From a virus, in IMG/VR virus record IMGVR_UViG_3300037504_000324, positions 1 through 20,760 of that record: a stretch of DNA of 20,760 bases; one strand, given 5' to 3'. The notes under the pieces are model-generated. The model was not told the DNA's origin. It was given only the letters and a program-made list of their open reading frames with translations, and did not search any database. Made by a program: the position numbers and the translations under genes. Positions 11,700 to 19,398 of the stretch are shown here, one piece after another (positions within the stretch are counted from its first letter, which is position 1; each line of letters opens with the position of its first letter).

Positions 11700-11984
11700 T
11701 TAAATAACCAACGCCCGACGCAAGGTGTCAAACTGCAACTTGCTCAGATTTATTTCCTGGATAATGTCACCATTACTATCCAGGATATCCACGCTATAGC
11801 GGCTAACAATGTTTGGTTGCTCGCCAAACACATATGCCTGTCGGAGCGTCTGGCAGCATCCAACGTATGGGCCATCGGGGAATGTTACTGCGTCGTCACA
11901 AATGAACGTGTTGTTTTCCACATCTGTCTCAACCAGACGCAGCGCGTGTGCGGTTGTGTTGAGAAAATGAAGGTCGGGTTTCAT
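11700..11984 (-). CDS. Small protein, function unknown
   Basis: A 94-residue protein starting with MKPDLHFLNTTAHALRLVETD, behind an AGAGAGGA-type ribosome binding site. It has a beta-rich middle (FICDDAVTFPDGPYVGCCQTLRQAYVFG, three Cys) and ends with LSKLQFDTLRRALVI. No membrane segment or domain is recognised. It is the last gene of the three-gene leftward operon that starts at the promoter/operator at 12837-12863. Its stop is at 11700-11702, next to terminator T2. Confidence 0.6.
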   Translation of the reverse strand: MKPDLHFLNTTAHALRLVETDVENNTFICDDAVTFPDGPYVGCCQTLRQAYVFGEQPNIVSRYSVDILDSNGDIIQEINLSKLQFDTLRRALVI

Positions 11985-11994
11985 AATGTCCTCT

Positions 11995-12396
11995 CTACTC
12001 CACCGCTTCTGCCGCCTGCTCTCGCACCGTCTGTGCCCATTCGATCAGGCCCCGTTCTTCGCTTGTCGCAATTACCTGCCAGGACGTGGAATGGCACCAA
12101 TCGTAGTCAATAAGTTCATGCCAATATGGACGAAGCTTGGGCGAGTTCTGGACGCGGGTTTTTGCGATGATCTTGTATGCCTCGATATCGCCATCCTCCA
12201 GATGGTACGCCTTGCGTACCTTTGGATGACGGGCGCGCAATGCTTCTCGAAAACCCGGCTCGCTCAACATTGGCGGGCCATCCTCTACCCATGCATCTCG
12301 CAGAGCGCGGCGCGTGAACTGCAAAACACGTCCAATCAAATCGCCATCCTGATCTACCATCTCTGAGCCGTAACGGTGTTCGATTGCGTAAAACAT
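11995..12396 (-). CDS. Small protein, function unknown
   Basis: A 133-residue protein starting with MFYAIEHRYGSEMVDQDGDLIGRVLQFTRRALRDAWV. The frame is open to 12573, but the ATG at 12396 is well supported: AGGAGG at 12400-12406, and an adjacent hairpin (12409-12429) that would fit a short intergenic leader. It is acidic-basic mixed, has no membrane segment and ends in IEWAQTVREQAAEAVE. It is the middle gene of the small leftward operon. No function is recognised. Confidence 0.65.
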   Translation of the reverse strand: MFYAIEHRYGSEMVDQDGDLIGRVLQFTRRALRDAWVEDGPPMLSEPGFREALRARHPKVRKAYHLEDGDIEAYKIIAKTRVQNSPKLRPYWHELIDYDWCHSTSWQVIATSEERGLIEWAQTVREQAAEAVE

Positions 12397-12408
12397 TCTA
12401 TCCTCCTG

Positions 12409-12429
12409 GCCCGTTACAATGCCACGGGC
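12409..12429 (-). other. Hairpin just upstream of a ribosome binding site
   Basis: GCCCGT (12409-12414) pairs with ACGGGC (12424-12429) around a 9-base loop. In the minus transcript it sits 2 bases before the AGGAGG that starts the gene ending at 11995. It could affect translation or mRNA stability; there is no T run, so it is not a terminator. Confidence 0.4.
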
Positions 12430-12452
12430 GGGGCTACTATGTGTGTGGTCAT

Positions 12453-12812
12453 CTACATCCACCGTTCGCCTGCATTCCAACGATCCACCAATTCCTGTAC
12501 TTCCGCTTCTGTTTTGTTGAAATACTTCAACGTCTGCGGGTTTGTGTGCAAAACCAGCTTGCCAGTGTCCCAATCGGGCTTAGCGAAAATGCCTGCCACT
12601 TCCTGGTAAATCGAACGCTTGCCTTCGGGAACCTCGGCCCATTCGCGCAGGCCGATTTTCTGGCGATGCACACGGGTGGTGCGGGTCTTTTTGCTTGTGC
12701 TGCCGAACTCGCCTTTGATTGTGTTTTCGCTGCTGGGAAGAAACTGACCGCCCTGATAAAATTCACCGTTCTTACCGTACTGTCCGCCTGCCTTTGCTTT
12801 GCCGTTTGCCAT
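12453..12812 (-). CDS. Small basic protein, function unknown
   Basis: A 119-residue protein starting with MANGKAKAGGQYGKNGEFYQGGQFLPSSEN. The frame is open upstream to 12929, but the ATG at 12812 has AAGGAG 8 bases before it and gives a sensible N-terminus rich in Gly, Tyr, Phe and Lys. The middle is basic (KKTRTTRVHRQKI) and the C-terminus ends in an EVQELVDRWNAGE helix. The N-terminal GG-QFLPSS pattern occurs in many phage and plasmid hypothetical proteins. It is the first gene behind the shared promoter/operator, so it is likely an early, regulated gene. Confidence 0.65.
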   Translation of the reverse strand: MANGKAKAGGQYGKNGEFYQGGQFLPSSENTIKGEFGSTSKKTRTTRVHRQKIGLREWAEVPEGKRSIYQEVAGIFAKPDWDTGKLVLHTNPQTLKYFNKTEAEVQELVDRWNAGERWM

Positions 12813-12836
12813 TGTTTTGTCTCCTTGTGTGTGTTC

Positions 12837-12863
12837 GTTGTCTCTCAACTGACTCCAGTATAC
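12837..12863 (-). promoter_or_regulatory. Promoter/operator element, copy 1 (shared with 18210-18236)
   Basis: In plus-strand reading: GTTGTCTCTCAACTGAC (12837-12853), three variable bases, then AGTATAC (12857-12863). Read on the minus strand this is a GTATACT -10-like element followed by a small palindrome GTTG-AGAGA-CAAC near the expected transcript start. Copy 2 is identical at 24 of 27 positions, and both lie exactly 24 bases before the start codon. No good -35 is visible. Confidence 0.65.
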
Positions 12864-12879
12864 TCCAGATGCGTCGCCA

Positions 12880-12923
12880 GTTCTATGATAAATGCCTGAT
12901 AAATACCTGATAGAATTATGATA
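12880..12923 (-). repeat. Iteron array: four tandem 11-bp units ending in TGATA
   Basis: Units (plus strand): GTTCTATGATA, AATGCCTGATA, AATACCTGATA, GAATTATGATA, with TGATA beginning at 12886, 12897, 12908 and 12919. The 11-bp period places the boxes on one face of the helix. The array lies directly upstream of the promoter/operator copy 1, so an activator or repressor site is likely. An iteron-type origin is an alternative, but no Rep gene is seen. Confidence 0.65.
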
Positions 12924-12943
12924 CGACACAAGAGACAGGGCAA

Positions 12944-12969
12944 CAAAAAAGCCCGCGGGAGTGGCGGGC
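12944..12969 (-). terminator. Intrinsic terminator of the ParM-to-ASCH operon
   Basis: Read on the minus strand: stem GCCCGC / GCGGGC (12964-12969 with 12951-12956), a 7-base loop and then six Ts (12945-12950). It lies 37 bases after the ASCH gene stop and ends the leftward operon. Confidence 0.85.
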
Positions 12970-13005
12970 GGTGGCGGTGGCAGCAGTGGGAGTTGGCGAG
13001 GCGGG

Positions 13006-13500
13006 CTACGTCCTATCTACCCACTCCCATAGGCCCTGCCTGCCTGTTGCTGGGATGGGCGGATTAATCGGGCGCACGTCGGCCAGGAGCCAGGCGTAAC
13101 GCCCTGGGGTGTAATCGCCGAAGGCACGCTCGCTGTCTGCGCTAAAATAGACGACGTGACCGCGATAACTGCGTTGCACGCGATACCCATCAATAACAGC
13201 CTCTGTATTGGTAATACCGACAAGATTACACACCGCCACGATGACACCCAACGGCAACGGTAACGGAGTGGCATATCCAGGAATTTGTACAACATACCCG
13301 TGGTGAGCCAGGGCACGGGCGAATAACTCGGTATAGCAGAGTTCTATCAATCCATTGGTGCCGCCCACCGGCATCAAACTCTTCGCAGCGTGGATAGCGA
13401 GCGGGCCGCGATAGCGCGTGCTCCAGCTACGGGTTTCGATGCGTTTTGCGCCTATCGCTATTAGCGTGGCGTAGGGTTGCGTCAATGTCAGTGCCTTCAT
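13006..13500 (-). CDS. ASCH-domain (PUA-like) protein
   Basis: A 164-residue protein with AGGAGG 5 bases before the ATG. The N-terminus MKALTLTQPYATLIAIGAKRIETRSW carries the ASCH signature (QPxAxLIxxGxKxxExRxW), followed by GPLAIHA and, later, a GRYAWLLADVRPI strand and ATGRQGLWEW, typical of ASCH proteins. The domain has the PUA/RNA-binding-like fold and is thought to bind RNA or modified nucleotides; some members act on modified cytidines. Here it is the last gene of the operon that begins with parM. A role in RNA handling or translation control is inferred from family only. Confidence 0.75.
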   Translation of the reverse strand: MKALTLTQPYATLIAIGAKRIETRSWSTRYRGPLAIHAAKSLMPVGGTNGLIELCYTELFARALAHHGYVVQIPGYATPLPLPLGVIVAVCNLVGITNTEAVIDGYRVQRSYRGHVVYFSADSERAFGDYTPGRYAWLLADVRPINPPIPATGRQGLWEWVDRT

Positions 13501-13512
13501 ATATTCCTCCTC

Positions 13513-14370
13513 TTACGGCTTCACGGCTAGCATACATATCTCTGGCACAACGTTCTGGCGTGCAATGCTGTAGCCATCTGGCACGGCGCCGCTAAAGCAC
13601 TCGCACGCATCAGCATTGCACGCAATCGTCCAGCCGACCGAGATTGCCGTCGCTGCCACCTCAACCTCAACGCCTGCCGATGTTCGCACGGTGGCGGGCG
13701 GCAGTATGGGCGCGGCGGTAGCGGTTGGCGTGGGTGCCTGCACAGGCGGTGCAAGCGGTGCGGGTTGCTCTACGACAATGACATGCGGCGTCTGTGTTGG
13801 CGCTGGCGTCGGCTCTGCGAGATCGGGCGCCTCTATCCAGAGATGGCCGTCAATCTGGACATAGCGCCCGTATGTGCCGGTTACAGGCCCGCCGATGGGG
13901 ATATCCTGTGCATACTCCCCACCTGGCGCGTAGTATGCCGCGATCATCGGCACATTTGTCGGGGTAGCAGTGGGCGCCGTTGTGGGTGTCGGCTGGACGG
14001 CTACAGGCTCATTCTGTCGAGTGAGCGCCACGAACGACGCCACAGCAGCTACCACGAGCGCACACGCGATGCCTGCTACAATCCAGGGCATAGGGGTGCG
14101 GTACGTGCGTTGCGTGTGCACGCTCGCGGGCGCGGACGCGTGCATCTGTCCGTCTGTCTGGTTTGTCGCTGACACGGGTTCGTCGGCTGCCCACGCGCAT
14201 ACCTGCGCCGTACTAGAGTATCGCACGACGATATATCCTGCAATTTCCCATTCCCGAATTAAATTGCCCGCCTTTGTCTGTTTTATGTTAAGCACGCGCT
14301 GCAAGTCGGCGCGGCGCCATTCTCCATACAACTCGCGGCGGGCGGTGGCTAGTCGCTGATCGTCTGTCAT
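13513..14370 (-). CDS. HTH - membrane - Pro/Thr stalk protein
   Basis: A 285-residue single-pass membrane protein. Residues about 5-60 form a winged-helix-like DNA-binding region (ARRELYGEWRRADLQRVLNIKQTKAGNLIREWEIAGYIVV). Residues 95-117 (PWIVAGIACALVVAAVASFVALT) are a membrane span with no signal peptide cleavage site, so the N-terminus is probably cytoplasmic. Outside follows a Pro/Thr-rich stalk (QPTPTTAPTATPTNV; PTPAPTQTP; APTPTATAA), a short YVQIDGHLWIEA SH3-like segment and a Cys-containing C-terminus (CNADACECFSG). It overlaps the two-TM gene through ATGA and lies in the partition operon. It may couple DNA binding to the membrane, as in anchored transcription factors, or anchor the element; the function is not known. 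The stalk composition resembles Chloroflexota proteins. Confidence 0.6.
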   Translation of the reverse strand: MTDDQRLATARRELYGEWRRADLQRVLNIKQTKAGNLIREWEIAGYIVVRYSSTAQVCAWAADEPVSATNQTDGQMHASAPASVHTQRTYRTPMPWIVAGIACALVVAAVASFVALTRQNEPVAVQPTPTTAPTATPTNVPMIAAYYAPGGEYAQDIPIGGPVTGTYGRYVQIDGHLWIEAPDLAEPTPAPTQTPHVIVVEQPAPLAPPVQAPTPTATAAPILPPATVRTSAGVEVEVAATAISVGWTIACNADACECFSGAVPDGYSIARQNVVPEICMLAVKP

Positions 14371-15038
14371 CGGAGTACCCTCGGCATTGTTAAATTCAAA
14401 AATTCCTCCAGCGTTTGCGGTTGCAAGCGGCGCGTGCTGCGCTCGCCATTGCCTGAGAGTAGGCGGGCGCTTTCCAGGCGGGCCGCAATTTGCTGGGCGT
14501 GTTCTCGCGTCGGCACCTGTCCGAGGTGGATTTGTGCCGTCCCAAACACGCGACGATCAACACTCAGGTATTGCGGCCCTTCCAGGCTGCGCACAGACCA
14601 TGGTGTCGGGTGTTCGTTCCGTCGCTGCCAGAGCGAGAACAGCAGCAGCAGCAGCCGGGCCGGGTCGTCTGCCGTGATCGTTGTTTCGCTGGCGGTGATT
14701 GTTGTAGTGACGCCTTGCTTTTCCTCGTATGCATCAAGCATCAGGGCGCGGCGATCAGCCTCGTAGTCCAGATCGGAGCGCCACTTTTTATAGGTGAAAT
14801 ACGGGATCAGGAACGCCAGAAACGACAACGCGCACAAGCCGAAACCGAACGGATACCATTGCCACGCGCCCGCAGGGATTGCAGCAGACAGCACGAAAAG
14901 CCCCAGCGTGCCCTGGAATGCAAGCACGGTAGATGCTCCCGCCGTGAGCACGGTTTGTTTCGCGTCAATATACAGCCGCTCGGCTGCGAGTTCTTGCACG
15001 GCCTGCGTTGCGGTGGCCTCTTTGTGCTGTAGGTGCAT
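14367..15038 (-). CDS. Two-TM membrane protein, function unknown
   Basis: A 223-residue protein with GGGAGGGG just before the ATG at 15038. The N-terminus is helical (MHLQHKEATATQAVQELAAERLYID). Two membrane spans follow (about 30-55: VLTAGASTVLAFQGTLGLFVLSAAI; 61-83: FGFGLCALSFLAFLIPYF). The rest (84-223) is hydrophilic and mostly helical with a run of positive residues, so the C-terminus is probably cytoplasmic (positive KKWR after TM2). It overlaps the HTH-membrane gene by ATGA and lies 12 bases after the 74-aa gene of the partition operon. It may place the operon products at the membrane; I do not recognise a family. Confidence 0.6.
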   Translation of the reverse strand: MHLQHKEATATQAVQELAAERLYIDAKQTVLTAGASTVLAFQGTLGLFVLSAAIPAGAWQWYPFGFGLCALSFLAFLIPYFTYKKWRSDLDYEADRRALMLDAYEEKQGVTTTITASETTITADDPARLLLLLFSLWQRRNEHPTPWSVRSLEGPQYLSVDRRVFGTAQIHLGQVPTREHAQQIAARLESARLLSGNGERSTRRLQPQTLEEFLNLTMPRVLR

Positions 15039-15050
15039 AGTCCCCTCCCG

Positions 15051-15275
15051 CTAATCCAGGTTGACCATGTGATCAGGAGCCTGAATGACCCTCACACTAT
15101 GGTACGCATACCCCTTTGTGGTAGGGTATTCTTTGTATGCCTGTTGCATCGCGTGCTCACGTGCGTCTGTGTCATTCGCTGATAGGAATAGGATGACCCC
15201 AAATCCAGCATCGTTTGTGTTCATGTTCCGTGCCAGTAGCGCGGCAGCGTACAGGTGTTGTGTGTGTTCGCTCAT
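15051..15275 (-). CDS. Small protein, function unknown
   Basis: A 74-residue protein starting with MSEHTQHLYAAALLARNMNTNDAG. The frame is open to 15377, but AGAGGAGG lies 4 bases before the ATG at 15275, and the previous gene (parR-like) stops 10 bases upstream. It is predicted to be mixed helix/strand, with GVILFLSANDTDAREHAMQQAYKEYP and a YHSVRVIQAP strand. It has no membrane segment. It is the third gene of the partition operon and could be an accessory factor; no family is recognised. Confidence 0.6.
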   Translation of the reverse strand: MSEHTQHLYAAALLARNMNTNDAGFGVILFLSANDTDAREHAMQQAYKEYPTTKGYAYHSVRVIQAPDHMVNLD

Positions 15276-15285
15276 GATACCTCCT

Positions 15286-15585
15286 CTAGTATCGTTTTCC
15301 CACATCGATAGGAAAATCATCATCATCGTCGTCGTGCTGTTCGGGTGCCTGTGGTGCTGTGTAGCGCTGTGGCGCACTCATGACGCGCTTCAATTCGGCC
15401 CGTGTGGCGTCGTCTAGCGGCTCCTTTAATGCGTGTGCCGCCTCTCTGTCAAGCCCCTGGATAGGTTGCCCAGCGTGATGCGCGCCAATGACCACAAGCG
15501 CCCGCAATCCGGCTGCAATGTTCCCGCCGCCGATGCGGCGTAATAATGCGCGCATCTCTGGAGAGAGCCGGAATCCTGTTATCAT
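15286..15585 (-). CDS. ParR-like DNA-binding adaptor (ribbon-helix-helix), partner of the actin-like protein
   Basis: A 99-residue protein that overlaps the parM-like gene stop by ATGA, the usual parM-parR arrangement. The N-terminal ITGFRLSPEMRALLRRIGGGNIAAGLRALV (residues 2-31) is a good ribbon-helix-helix candidate: a short strand (FRLS) and two helices with a G-N turn. The C-terminus is acidic (DDDDDD at 85-90, then FPIDVGKRY); acidic or flexible C-termini of ParR proteins contact ParM. Together with the operator upstream of parM, this gives a complete set of partition parts: adaptor, motor and DNA site. The assignment rests on order, size and fold pattern, not on sequence identity to a known ParR. 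Confidence 0.55.
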   Translation of the reverse strand: MITGFRLSPEMRALLRRIGGGNIAAGLRALVVIGAHHAGQPIQGLDREAAHALKEPLDDATRAELKRVMSAPQRYTAPQAPEQHDDDDDDFPIDVGKRY

Positions 15586-16538
15586 TGCGCCGCAATCCGG
15601 GCCGCGAGACGCGCATACCCGCGAGCGACAGCCATCTGAGGCTCTGGCACGATGACGGCATGCCCGTATCTCGCCTGGATTACATCCGTGAGTTGCGGCA
15701 ATTCTGCACCGCCACCGCCGATGAGAATAGCATCGTATCCCTTACCATTACCCCATCGCTCTGTGAGGTACGACAGGATAGTGTTGGCGTGCTGATCAAG
15801 CGGTGCATCCCATCCTGGCGGCAGTTTCACAAACTGGCCTGCAATCGTGACGCCGCCAGCACGCACCGCCTGATCAGTCTGGTAGAGCGTCAACTCGCGG
15901 CCTAACGCACTCGATAGAAACGAGCGGATAGCCTTGAGCGGCTGCGCTGTGCCAAGTTCGCGGGCGTCCATACCCGTGCTCACGGGGCGCATCTTCTGCA
16001 CCTCGGACACGTCCAGCGTGAGGTGCCCGATATCGGCAACGGCGACGCTGCCCTTGAGTGCTGTATCGCCCGTCGTTTTACCATTGTTGTCGAGTAACAG
16101 GCTGTAGAGCAGCCCAACCGGCTCGGCGATGACCGTGATATCGCCCTCCCACAGAGCACTCGCCTCGCGCAATCGCGCTGCCAGCGCCCGCCCGTACTCC
16201 TCATTCTCTGCCTGATGCGCTGGCAAGCCAGTCACCAGGGTTCCTGTGTCGCTTATTCCCGCCGTCGCGTGCTTGACCATCGCGGGGATCAAAGCAGGAT
16301 GCGTCAGACGTGCCTCAGACAGGTCTGTGAGCGGGTGTGCGGCCATTTCTGCATCCAATCCCACCCAATACTCAGATCCGTTAATCGTGACGGTTGTGGC
16401 CCGTTCCAGGGCGCCTGCAACCGCACGCGAAGCGGGAGCGATCATCGAGGGAAACGAGACGTTAACAATCTCCTCTCCATTGCTCAGGCCGATCAGTTTG
16501 GTGTACCCATAGCCTCCGTTGTATCCATACGCGTGCAT
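15582..16538 (-). CDS. Actin-like ATPase, ParM/Alp-type partition motor
   Basis: A 318-residue actin-fold protein (ALP/ParM-like). Phosphate-1 loop: GYNGGYGYTK (5-14), where the usual Asp (DxGxxxxK) is replaced by Asn7. Phosphate-2: ADIGHLTLD (168-176), with both expected Asp positions. The connect motif is EPVGLLYSL (139-147), and the adenosine motif is LIGGGGAEL (272-280). The length fits the family (about 320-350). A GAGGAG ribosome binding site lies 5 bases before the ATG. It is the first gene of the operon, directly behind a palindromic operator/promoter (16574-16614), and is followed by a ParR-like gene. It is likely to polymerise and move plasmid-like DNA at cell division, but a cytoskeletal role in phage replication is possible. 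The D-to-N change may alter ATP hydrolysis. Confidence 0.72.
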   Translation of the reverse strand: MHAYGYNGGYGYTKLIGLSNGEEIVNVSFPSMIAPASRAVAGALERATTVTINGSEYWVGLDAEMAAHPLTDLSEARLTHPALIPAMVKHATAGISDTGTLVTGLPAHQAENEEYGRALAARLREASALWEGDITVIAEPVGLLYSLLLDNNGKTTGDTALKGSVAVADIGHLTLDVSEVQKMRPVSTGMDARELGTAQPLKAIRSFLSSALGRELTLYQTDQAVRAGGVTIAGQFVKLPPGWDAPLDQHANTILSYLTERWGNGKGYDAILIGGGGAELPQLTDVIQARYGHAVIVPEPQMAVARGYARLAARIAAQ

Positions 16539-16573
16539 ACTCTCTCCTCGTGTAAGTTCGTATCGCTGCTGCT

Positions 16574-16614
16574 ACTATAGCATATGTGCAACAAACGTGC
16601 AACACGTGTTGCAC
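16574..16614 (-). promoter_or_regulatory. Promoter and palindromic operator of the partition operon
   Basis: An 18-bp perfect palindrome GTGCAACACGTGTTGCAC lies at 16597-16614, with a further GTGCAAC half-site at 16586-16592, one helical turn away. Read on the minus strand, TTGCAC (16597-16602) and TATAGT (16574-16579) form a promoter with a 17-base spacer, so the palindrome covers the -35 and the extra half-site lies between -35 and -10. This is the arrangement expected for autorepression by a ParR-like protein, and the site could also be part of a parC-type centromere. Confidence 0.65.
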
Positions 16615-16628
16615 AATCCGGGCAAAGC

Positions 16629-16648
16629 AAAACCCCGCCGAAGCGGGG
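16629..16648 (-). terminator. Intrinsic terminator of the DHH operon
   Basis: Read on the minus strand: stem CCCCGC (16643-16648) with GCGGGG (16633-16638), a TTCG loop, then TTTT (16629-16632). It lies just after the stop (TAG at 16673-16675) of the DHH phosphoesterase gene, so it ends that operon before the parM promoter. Confidence 0.8.
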
Positions 16649-16672
16649 CTGCGAGATATGGGCGGATCTTTC

Positions 16673-17617
16673 CTAGCGCTCCCACGCTGCATCAATGGTG
16701 CGAGCCACAGCGTCAACCGTCAACCCTCCCGGAACCGGGTCAAAGCGCGTGGCCTTGCCTGTGCCGCGCCCGGCAAAGAAGCCCGCCGGATGTCGGAACC
16801 AATCATCAGCCTGCATTGCACTATCCAACGCGGAGTCCGCAAGGACACTCCCAACGTGCGGGAACTCAGCAGCCTGATTGCGTTGGATGCCGATGGCGTA
16901 AGACGTGCCGTTCTCTGTTGGAATGTCGCTGCGGAACACGACCAGCGTTGCCCCGGCGGCGAACGCGGCTTGACTGTGGCGCGGCTGTCCGTGCTCAATG
17001 GCAACGACTTTGCCATCTTCGGAACGCCACACAAGTTTCTCCGCAAGCTCGGCGGCGGCTTCTGCCTGTCGCTGCAAGCGTGCTGCCAGCAGATCAAGCT
17101 CCTGGCATCCCCATTCCATTAATGCGGCGTCCGTCCAGCCTGCCGCCTTACGGGCGCTGAGTTGCGCGTGCAGACCAACCTGGCGACTGTAGCCCGCACC
17201 AAAGTGGTTACGGCCCGTATCGCCTGCGTAGATGAGCATGACGAGCGGCTCCAGATGAGCCGCAACGCCATTGTGCCCGCCGAGCCATTCCCAAACGAGC
17301 AACGCAGCACACGTTTCATTCGCGGCGCCCTCCGGCAGGTGATGGTGGTCGAAGCGGCGCCCAAGCGGGTCAAGGATACTGCCACAATCCACAATAGCGG
17401 CGTGCGTGTCTTTGTATTCCTCGACTTGCTCACGACTAGCGCAAACAATCTCAGCGTGCCTGTAATGATCGTCGTAGCGCTGCAACAACCACGCGGCTCC
17501 GATAGCGTCCCAATCTGGCGATGTGTGTGTGATGATTTTATTCATTGCAGTTTCTAGCCCGATACAACGCCTCGGGCTATGATTACTTTTTTTGCCGCCT
17601 GTACCGTTGCCGCTCAC
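16673..17617 (-). CDS. DHH-type phosphoesterase, phage-encoded
   Basis: A 314-residue protein with the motifs of the DHH superfamily (MYG1/RecJ/pAp phosphatase-like): THTSPDWDAIG (30-40; D35 and D37), VDCG (76-79) and FDHHH (89-93), followed by YAGDTG and a basic C-terminal half. These enzymes use paired metals to hydrolyse phosphodiesters, for example 3'-phosphoadenosine phosphate, nanoRNA or single-stranded DNA; the substrate here cannot be assigned. Start: the GTG at 17617 is in a GTGA overlap with the upstream stop and has GAGG 6 bases before it. An in-frame ATG at 17545 would begin the family-like sequence (MNKIITHTS) but lacks a ribosome binding site. The 24 extra residues look non-homologous. 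Confidence 0.7.
   Translation of the reverse strand: MSGNGTGGKKSNHSPRRCIGLETAMNKIITHTSPDWDAIGAAWLLQRYDDHYRHAEIVCASREQVEEYKDTHAAIVDCGSILDPLGRRFDHHHLPEGAANETCAALLVWEWLGGHNGVAAHLEPLVMLIYAGDTGRNHFGAGYSRQVGLHAQLSARKAAGWTDAALMEWGCQELDLLAARLQRQAEAAAELAEKLVWRSEDGKVVAIEHGQPRHSQAAFAAGATLVVFRSDIPTENGTSYAIGIQRNQAAEFPHVGSVLADSALDSAMQADDWFRHPAGFFAGRGTGKATRFDPVPGGLTVDAVARTIDAAWER
17555..17579. other. Hairpin between the two possible starts of the DHH gene
   Basis: TAGCCCGA (17555-17562) pairs perfectly with TCGGGCTA (17572-17579) around a 9-base loop, followed on the plus strand by TGATTAC and TTTTTTT (17587-17593). In the minus-strand mRNA it lies between the GTG start at 17617 and the ATG at 17545 and could influence which start is used; on the plus strand it resembles a weak terminator. 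Confidence 0.4.
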
Positions 17618-17814
17618 TCAGTTCCTCTAGCGGCTTTCGCGCCCGCTGCCCTCGCTCGGCGGCGCTCCACCGAGGCGCGGGTGACGCGGCCACGGTTGCC
17701 GACGGCGGGCGCGGCCTTTAGCCGCCCGCGTTGTACCAGTTTGCGCACGTAGTCAGTGCGCACGCCCAGGTGCTTGGCGGCTCCCTGGTAGGTGAGGGTG
17801 TTGTCAGTAGTCAT
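17614..17814 (-). CDS. Small HTH (excisionase/MerR-like) DNA-binding protein
   Basis: A 66-residue protein with a single HTH of the excisionase/HTH_17 type: LTYQGAAKHLGVRTDYVRKLVQRGRLKAAP (about 7-36), followed by a basic C-terminal tail RVTRASVERRRARAAG. The start ATG overlaps the upstream stop (ATGA), and its own stop overlaps the DHH start (GTGA). It lies in an operon behind promoter/operator copy 2, so it could be the regulator that binds the shared operator; that link is only positional. Confidence 0.65.
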   Translation of the reverse strand: MTTDNTLTYQGAAKHLGVRTDYVRKLVQRGRLKAAPAVGNRGRVTRASVERRRARAAGAKAARGTE

Positions 17815-18185
17815 CGCACACCTAACCTATCAAACTCACGTTGCGCCCAATCCTGAGCGTCCGACCGAGACTGCAATAATACGCTATCCGACTCAATACG
17901 ATAGCCGTTTGGCAGTACGACGCACACCCTGTACCCGCCGTCAAAACAACTGAAAATCCGCCCTTGGTATGTCTCGTTGTTGCGCTGGCGATAGCACACC
18001 AGTGCTCTCCCCTCCTCGTGCCAGGATGCGTCACGGATGGCACTTTCCAGTGCTGCAAGGCCGCTGTGCGCTGCGATAAACCCCTCCGTGTCGATGTACA
18101 AGTCCTCTTCGGTGTCCAGTGTTTCGATTTGCCCGATGATGTCGCGGGCTTGTTTCAGTAGCTCAAGTGCTGTTGCGTGTGTCAT
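17811..18185 (-). CDS. Small protein, function unknown
   Basis: A 124-residue protein starting with MTHATALELLKQARDIIGQIETLDTEEDLYID, with AGGAGA 6 bases before the ATG. The N-terminal half is helical and acidic, followed by a QRNNETYQGRIFSCFDGGYRVCVVLPNGYRIESDS strand-rich part (two Cys) and a WAQREFDRLG helix. No known domain is recognised and no membrane segment is seen. It is the first gene of the operon behind promoter/operator copy 2, with the same 24-base leader as the gene starting at 12812. Confidence 0.65.
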   Translation of the reverse strand: MTHATALELLKQARDIIGQIETLDTEEDLYIDTEGFIAAHSGLAALESAIRDASWHEEGRALVCYRQRNNETYQGRIFSCFDGGYRVCVVLPNGYRIESDSVLLQSRSDAQDWAQREFDRLGVR

Positions 18186-18209
18186 TGTGTCTCTCCTGTG
18201 TTGCTACCA

Positions 18210-18236
18210 GTTGTCTCTCAACTGACATTAGTATAC
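18210..18236 (-). promoter_or_regulatory. Promoter/operator element, copy 2 (shared with 12837-12863)
   Basis: In plus-strand reading: GTTGTCTCTCAACTGAC (18210-18226), ATT, then AGTATAC (18230-18236). The palindrome here extends to AGTTG-TCTCT-CAACT (18209-18223). It is identical to copy 1 at 24 of 27 positions and lies exactly 24 bases before the ATG at 18185. A TTGACA (minus strand) lies upstream of the GTATACT, but only 10 bases away, too close for a standard -35. Confidence 0.65.
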
Positions 18237-18288
18237 ACGATTGTGTGTCAAGAGGTTCGGGAGATATGATAGGAGATTACTGCAAAAC

Positions 18289-19398
18289 CTACCGCATGGA
18301 CATCAGCATAATGACGTGCGTGTAGTGATCATCCCCGACAGGACGCAGCACGAGCGGCGAATGGGCGCCCATCAATTCCAGCGCTACCTGCTGCGTCTCT
18401 GTTGCCTCTAGCACATCAGCGAGAAACCGCACATTGACGGCGATCTCGTTGTCGGCGCCTTCGATCATCGCGCCGATGGTACCCTGGTTATCGCCAACGT
18501 CGGCAGCATTGGCGCTGAGTGTTAGTCCTTCTTTCTCCTGCACCTGAACCTTCAGAATACCCTGACTGGCGAGCGCAAAGTGAGACGCGAGCTTGACGGC
18601 TTTCGCCAGCTCCCGTGTGTCCACAAGGCAGCGCGTGGTGTGCTCTTTGGGAATGATGCGCTCGAAATCGGGGAACTGGCCGTCAATCAGACGTGAGACA
18701 AGCGTAGTTGCGCCTGTCTCAAAAACAACCTGATTGTCGCTAACTGCCATCCTGATGGCACCTTCTGCATCCCCGATGATGTTAGCCAACTCGCGCAATG
18801 CGCGGGCAGGGATGATCAGGTCTGGACGGGACTGCATGCTCTCTGTGCCCAATACGTACTTAGCCAGGCGAAACCCGTCTGCTGCCGCCAGTTTGACACC
18901 TTCCGGGCCAATGCCAACATAGACGCCCGTGAGTACCGGGCGGCTCTCGTCTGTGGCGGCGGCGAATGCGGTGCACTTTATCGCGTCGCGCAATGCGGGT
19001 GCCGGGAATGAGATACCCTCCCCGGTTGTGGTAGGAATGCGCGGAAACTCATCAGCGTCTAGCCCGGCGATGTTGGTTACGAAACGCCCGCATTCCAGGC
19101 GCAGGGACGTGCCATGCATTCGGAGCGTTACCATATCATTCGGCAAGCCGCCCACCACATCCGCCAGCAGGCGAGCGGGCACACTGATACTGCCGTGCGT
19201 CCCGGAGAATATCGAGACACGGGTAGTAATGCTCATTTCCAGGTTTGTAGCAGCCAACCTGAGCCTACCAGCGGCCACCGTCAGAAGAATGTGAGTGAGA
19301 CTAGGGATAGATGATTTACCTGCCACAGCGGGGCGCACAGTGGCTATAGCGCGCCTTAGTTCGGATTGTGGTACGGTGGCTTGTAGTTCGTTCGTCAT
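18289..19398 (-). CDS. dnaN: DNA polymerase III beta-like sliding clamp
   Basis: A 369-residue sliding clamp. The length and the three-domain repeat pattern match bacterial DnaN (about 366-378). Features: N-terminal ELRRAIATVRPAVAGKSSIPSLTHILLTV, LAATNLEMSIT, SVPARLLADVVGGLP, DADEFPRIP, then RPVLTGVYVGI and LAAADGFRLA, DGQFPDFERIIP, and the C-terminal HVIMLMSMR (the usual MPMR end). It encircles DNA and holds the replicative polymerase. It may recruit a phage polymerase or divert the host one. The TAATG overlap shows it is coupled to the dCTP deaminase gene upstream. Phage-encoded clamps of the DnaN type are uncommon compared with host-encoded ones. Confidence 0.93.
   Translation of the reverse strand: MTNELQATVPQSELRRAIATVRPAVAGKSSIPSLTHILLTVAAGRLRLAATNLEMSITTRVSIFSGTHGSISVPARLLADVVGGLPNDMVTLRMHGTSLRLECGRFVTNIAGLDADEFPRIPTTTGEGISFPAPALRDAIKCTAFAAATDESRPVLTGVYVGIGPEGVKLAAADGFRLAKYVLGTESMQSRPDLIIPARALRELANIIGDAEGAIRMAVSDNQVVFETGATTLVSRLIDGQFPDFERIIPKEHTTRCLVDTRELAKAVKLASHFALASQGILKVQVQEKEGLTLSANAADVGDNQGTIGAMIEGADNEIAVNVRFLADVLEATETQQVALELMGAHSPLVLRPVGDDHYTHVIMLMSMR

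Follow-up and report, generated by a model that had tools for sequence, protein, structure and literature searches.

A run of four TATCA boxes, repeated every 11 bp in the 20,760-base virus record of a tailed phage (here called the window, over its whole length), probably serves as the docking site of a protein that turns on accessory genes of the phage. From the sequence comparisons assembled here, we lean, with slightly better than even confidence, towards the array being the upstream half of an activator-dependent σ70-type promoter for a small accessory operon. The same architecture, (TATCA-N6)n-TATCA-N23-TATnnT-N6-A(+1), with exactly 23 nt between the last box and the −10 hexamer, was found in 14 promoters from 12 virus records. 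Its carriers are tailed phages and three circular filamentous-like genomes, with local GC contents of 34–64%. Together, the fixed distance, the conservation of the start site and the weakness of the −35 hexamer favour contact with an activator or with RNA polymerase.

The array and its promoter in the window

The rightward strand of the window carries the tape measure, tail and tail-fibre genes, and the leftward strand carries the genes for a sliding clamp, dCTP deaminase and actin-like ParM along with small genes. The leftward gene block is separated from a terminal leftward operon by a terminator-like hairpin, the array and the promoter. The last gene before the terminator (13006–13500) encodes an ASCH-domain protein (PF04266). 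No Rfam families were found in the window. The features of the region, with offsets relative to the inferred start, are:

12951–12969, minus strand: intrinsic-terminator-like hairpin with a T-run, placed between the leftward genes upstream and the array promoter; conserved in the relatives L004 and L006
12919–12923, minus strand: TATCA box 4, −73 to −69, from the sequence
12908–12912, minus strand: TATCA box 3, −62 to −58, kept in 14 of 14 array promoters
12897–12901, minus strand: TATCA box 2, −51 to −47, from the sequence and the aligned promoters
12886–12890, minus strand: TATCA box 1, −40 to −36, abutting the −35 position and exactly 23 nt before the −10
12880–12885, minus strand: weak −35 hexamer TAGAAC, 3/6 to TTGACA, 17-nt spacer
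12857–12862, minus strand: −10 hexamer TATACT, conserved across the promoter class
12850, minus strand: transcription start, an A preceded by C, inferred from the aligned promoters
12837–12849, minus strand: GTTGAGAGACAAC, short inverted repeat among the first transcribed bases, common to promoter copy 2 and relatives
12453–12812, minus strand: first gene, MANGKAKAGG..., 119 aa, no family match in scans covering the segment 12453–12791
11995–12396, minus strand: second gene, MFYAIEHRYG..., an orphan family found behind the array in five phages
11700–11984, minus strand: third gene of the leftward group, 94 aa, no family

The boxes, TGATA on the plus strand, are TATCA on the minus strand, where the promoter reads TATCATAATTC TATCAGGTATT TATCAGGCATT TATCA, 23 nt, TATACT (12862–12857), an inferred +1 at 12850 and an ATG at 12812. 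The measurements in the preliminary description were borne out when the sequence was re-read: TGATA starts at 12886, 12897, 12908 and 12919 with an 11-bp period, the middle units (TGATAAATGCC and TGATAAATACC, with the plus strand's first two spacers) are identical at 10 of 11 bases, and the boxes span −36 to −73, given the −10 and the inferred +1. When the whole window was shuffled 100 times with its dinucleotides preserved, no 5-mer ever occurred four times at a constant period of 8–25. The GC content is 27% in 12880–12923 against about 57% in the window. The second copy of the promoter (−10 at 18235–18230) does have a single TATCA at a different spacing, 31 nt before its −10 instead of 23 nt. 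This copy (18229–18260) lacks 8 bp between TTGACA and TATACT, where L004 and L007 have TATCGATA and TATCGACA, respectively, so that just 10 nt separate its hexamers, and it may be impaired. The inverted repeat (CA)GTTGAGAGACAAC(TG), a candidate 5' stabilising hairpin or operator, occupies the first transcribed bases at 12837–12849 and 18210–18222 as well as in L004, L006 and L007.

The MFYAIE proteins of the five phages are 36–81% identical to the window protein. A pattern scan returned no further members, which counts for little, as its patterns were drawn from those same five sequences. In searches for function, no family was matched and no fold could be assigned with confidence, only one of the five models being confident. 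Other arrays precede different small genes, and we infer that the array-driven gene groups are accessory operons.

Recurrence of the promoter and strength of its −35

Members of the class were retrieved by TATCA patterns, which relatives with other boxes would escape. A first scan of 2.9 million virus contigs, with three boxes and no −10 in the pattern, gave 62 stretches that collapse, together with the window, to 52 distinct arrays. TAT[AG][AC]T lay exactly 23 nt past the last box in 11 of these 52, compared with three matches in total at the other distances from 8 to 44 nt; the upstream side of the arrays had three scattered matches. A second scan, with two boxes plus the −10 in the pattern, recovered the same members, in which the unsearched third box is TATCA, as against 0 of 5 in the remaining matches, which were judged to be chance. 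A third scan, permitting any spacer sequence, added three related circular genomes of 10–12 kb with the spacer GCAAAT. Sites at a fixed distance upstream of the −10, as activator-dependent σ70 promoters have them, were thus found in 11 arrays and, over all scans, in 14 promoters. Conservation in the 14 aligned promoters extends to further unsearched positions, namely A at +1, mostly C at −1, and A at −32; one row (L038) is shifted in the alignment, which accounts for its single exceptions, including that at A(+1). The records studied have one or two 23-nt arrays with perfect boxes each and at most three matches at any other tested distance (the few seen were at 18, 19, 22 and 28 nt), while one 12/15 match at 23 nt comes from reading the G007 array out of register.

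The −35 hexamer matches the consensus at three to four of six positions in 11 of the 14 array promoters, against four and six of six in array-less orthologous promoters, which are taken to be factor-independent. The orthologues of the first gene in L003 and L004 are preceded by TTGACA-17-TATGAT and TTGCAA-17-TATAAT, respectively, with no array. The exception is provided by the three small circular genomes, which combine the array with a good −35, TTGAAA. These comparisons bear on whether the boxes are instead repressor operators that silence the accessory operon, as the position of the array next to the −35 would allow. Arrays of repressor sites are common in phages. A repressor, however, has no need of one invariant distance to the −10, and both the poor −35 and the better −35 of the array-less orthologous promoters point to activation, leaving repression a very unlikely explanation. 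In 11 of the 14 promoters, the array looks like a portable upstream module standing in for the −35. The window and L004 align at the terminator and again at the start region, so that the intervening segment seems to have been exchanged; L006 has an array and promoter core nearly identical to those of the window, with a different gene downstream.

The three small genomes (L130, L131 and L133) are circular, 10–12 kb long and filamentous-phage-like, and their terminal repeats of 71–84 bp indicate that they are probably complete. L130 encodes a Rep_1-like initiator, a CysH-like protein, a weak Zot-like ATPase and, by eye, a DNA methyltransferase; the Rep_1-like, methyltransferase and CysH-like genes are present in all three. 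One 101-aa protein is 96–99% identical among them while the rest diverge, and the array-driven gene changes mostly at third positions, as in a coding gene. A CysH-like protein was also noted by eye, together with type IV-B CRISPR-like genes, at about 37127–40104 of the array-bearing record G005 (IMGVR_UViG_3300037848_000009).

Elsewhere, a search of 84,980 bacterial and archaeal species genomes with the strict promoter pattern yielded no genuine instance, the two isolated Bacteroidales matches lacking a third box and being judged chance. Named phages gave no DNA match to 12000–18400 and only weak partial matches to the consensus array. Plasmids likewise gave only weak array matches, that in a Leptolinea plasmid falling inside a predicted gene. 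The core string was found only in unrelated papers, and no such site is described in the literature searched. AT-rich phage contigs (L010, L014, L022, L024, L061 and others) also contain TATCA arrays with an 11-bp period, such as TATCATTAAAATATCATCTTTTTATCAT, with no −10 at 23 nt; these are a different repeat class.

Candidate proteins for the boxes

The preliminary description proposed cooperative binding by an activator, a repressor or a replication initiator, on an equal footing, and a possible origin role. That unrelated phages carry the array, always 23 nt from the −10, supports the cooperative activator far more strongly than the window by itself could. The initiator and the origin fared poorly: among the window proteins scanned, including those near the array, no replication initiator gene was recognised, and the array tracks the promoter, at its fixed distance, across viruses with unlike replication modules. 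Only the small circular genomes have a Rep_1-like gene adjoining the array, and “iteron” is no more than a descriptive term. The array, being AT-rich, could also be imagined as the parC centromere of a ParM/ParR-like partition system (15286–16538), as the window has a gene for an actin-like ParM, followed by a small gene placed as one for ParR would be. The parC of plasmid R1 likewise has 11-bp repeats. The array does not follow ParM, however: no ParM family match was obtained in the array-bearing records G005 and G007–G012, and ParM is present in G001, G002 and G004, which have no array. This contradicts the centromere, and we regard parC and origin roles alike as extremely improbable. Upstream of parM, at approximately 16585–16615 on the minus strand, GTGCAACACGTGTTGCACGTTTGTTGCAC contains three copies of the half-site GTTGCAC, of which two are direct at an 11-bp interval. 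They overlap a TTGCAC-17-TATAGT promoter and are a better candidate than the TATCA array for a ParR operator or centromere. Integrase arm sites, suggested by an integrase-like gene beside the array in G012, were rejected because elsewhere the array keeps its promoter spacing with no integrase nearby.

A regulator encoded by the phages themselves is a further possibility. The 66-aa window protein encoded at 17614–17814 matches HTH_17 and is BldC-like; proteins of the BldC type assemble cooperatively on direct repeats as head-to-tail multimers (PMC5859096). In G008 and G011, small Cro-like HTH genes adjoin the array divergently. The distribution of HTH_17 does not follow that of the array, however, with homologues in G002 and G004, which are records lacking the array, none seen in the array-bearing G003 record and none found in the G007–G010 records, and the window protein was rejected as the regulator. 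The Cro-like genes of G008 and G011 are unlike each other and have Pfam matches below the cut-off only. A phage-encoded OmpR/PhoB regulator was also rejected, as no Trans_reg_C (PF00486) match was obtained in the 12 array-bearing virus records. Finally, no transcription-factor family was detected among the proteins tested from the circular 10-kb L130, which points to a host regulator. Phage-encoded control is thus distinctly unlikely in our estimation, and the host is a likelier source of the activator than the phage, a reading drawn from the absence of recognisable factors in genomes that are fragmentary. A host-owned regulator would be expected to have chromosomal sites, yet the strict pattern gave none among the bacterial and archaeal genomes; the hosts may be unsampled, or the host sites may differ.

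These data have led us to propose a model for the array promoter whereby a sequence-specific, oligomerising activator presumably binds at the TATCA boxes, each box, every 11 bp on one helical face, holding one head-to-tail protomer. As box 1 ends at −36, against the −35 position, the bound protein would contact σ region 4 and/or α, and this contact would make up for the poor −35. The effect is presumably activation, with the operon driven leftward from 12812 to about 11700. We suggest more tentatively, as a possibility that we would not yet bet on, that (TATCA-N6)n-TATCA-N23-TATnnT is a previously undescribed, strictly conserved promoter code, common to tailed and filamentous-like phages because they obey one host activator, which would control the accessory genes of many different viruses infecting that host group. 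If this is true, a rigid code in their promoters puts the accessory genes of viruses that are not related to one another under a regulator of an uncultured host. Such a code is easily searched, flags accessory operons of undefined function and connects viruses whose hosts may belong to one group; the array itself is a defined 40-bp bait for isolating the regulator.

Comparison with known systems

A serious rival to an activator is an UP element, in which the α-CTD of RNA polymerase would read phased AT patches directly. Published α-CTD subsites are centred at −42 and −52 in phased AT tracts (PMC4496709), and the array, with phased AT-rich patches about −42 and −52, matches this register in promoters that are otherwise σ70-like; this coincidence keeps the reading alive. 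Unlike an UP element, the array has an invariant TATCA whose C persists even in third boxes that the search pattern did not include, in contrast to the differing spacers (GGTATT, GCAAAT, CCTAAA, GATAGT), and its boxes extend to −73 and as far as −84. Since the α-CTD recognises minor-groove shape and not a fixed C, we consider direct reading by polymerase unlikely, although it deserves weight.

Among activator systems, the array resembles the tandem sites of OmpR/PhoB-type regulators, including SARP promoters, in having short direct repeats 11 bp apart that compensate for a poor promoter. In SARP promoters, the repeats stop 8 bp short of the −10, and those of afsS overlap the −35 (PMC10936776). 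In contrast to SARP/PhoB-type spacing, where the proximal repeat lies about 8–11 bp from the −10 and over the −35, the last TATCA box ends 23 nt from the −10 in all members, upstream of the −35. BldC provides a second parallel, as a small wHTH protein whose protomers line up head to tail on direct repeats of varying number (PMC5859096); the TATCA repeats are also variable in number, and an HTH_17 protein is encoded in the window. The BldC repeat, however, is AATTXXXX(C), with a 9-bp period in whiI, as opposed to TATCA-N6 of 11 bp, and a BldC-like protein does not consistently accompany the array. The promoters activated by λ CII share with the array short direct repeats on one face of the helix accompanying a weak −35. 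The CII repeats (TTGC) flank the −35, whereas all three to five TATCA boxes lie upstream of it.
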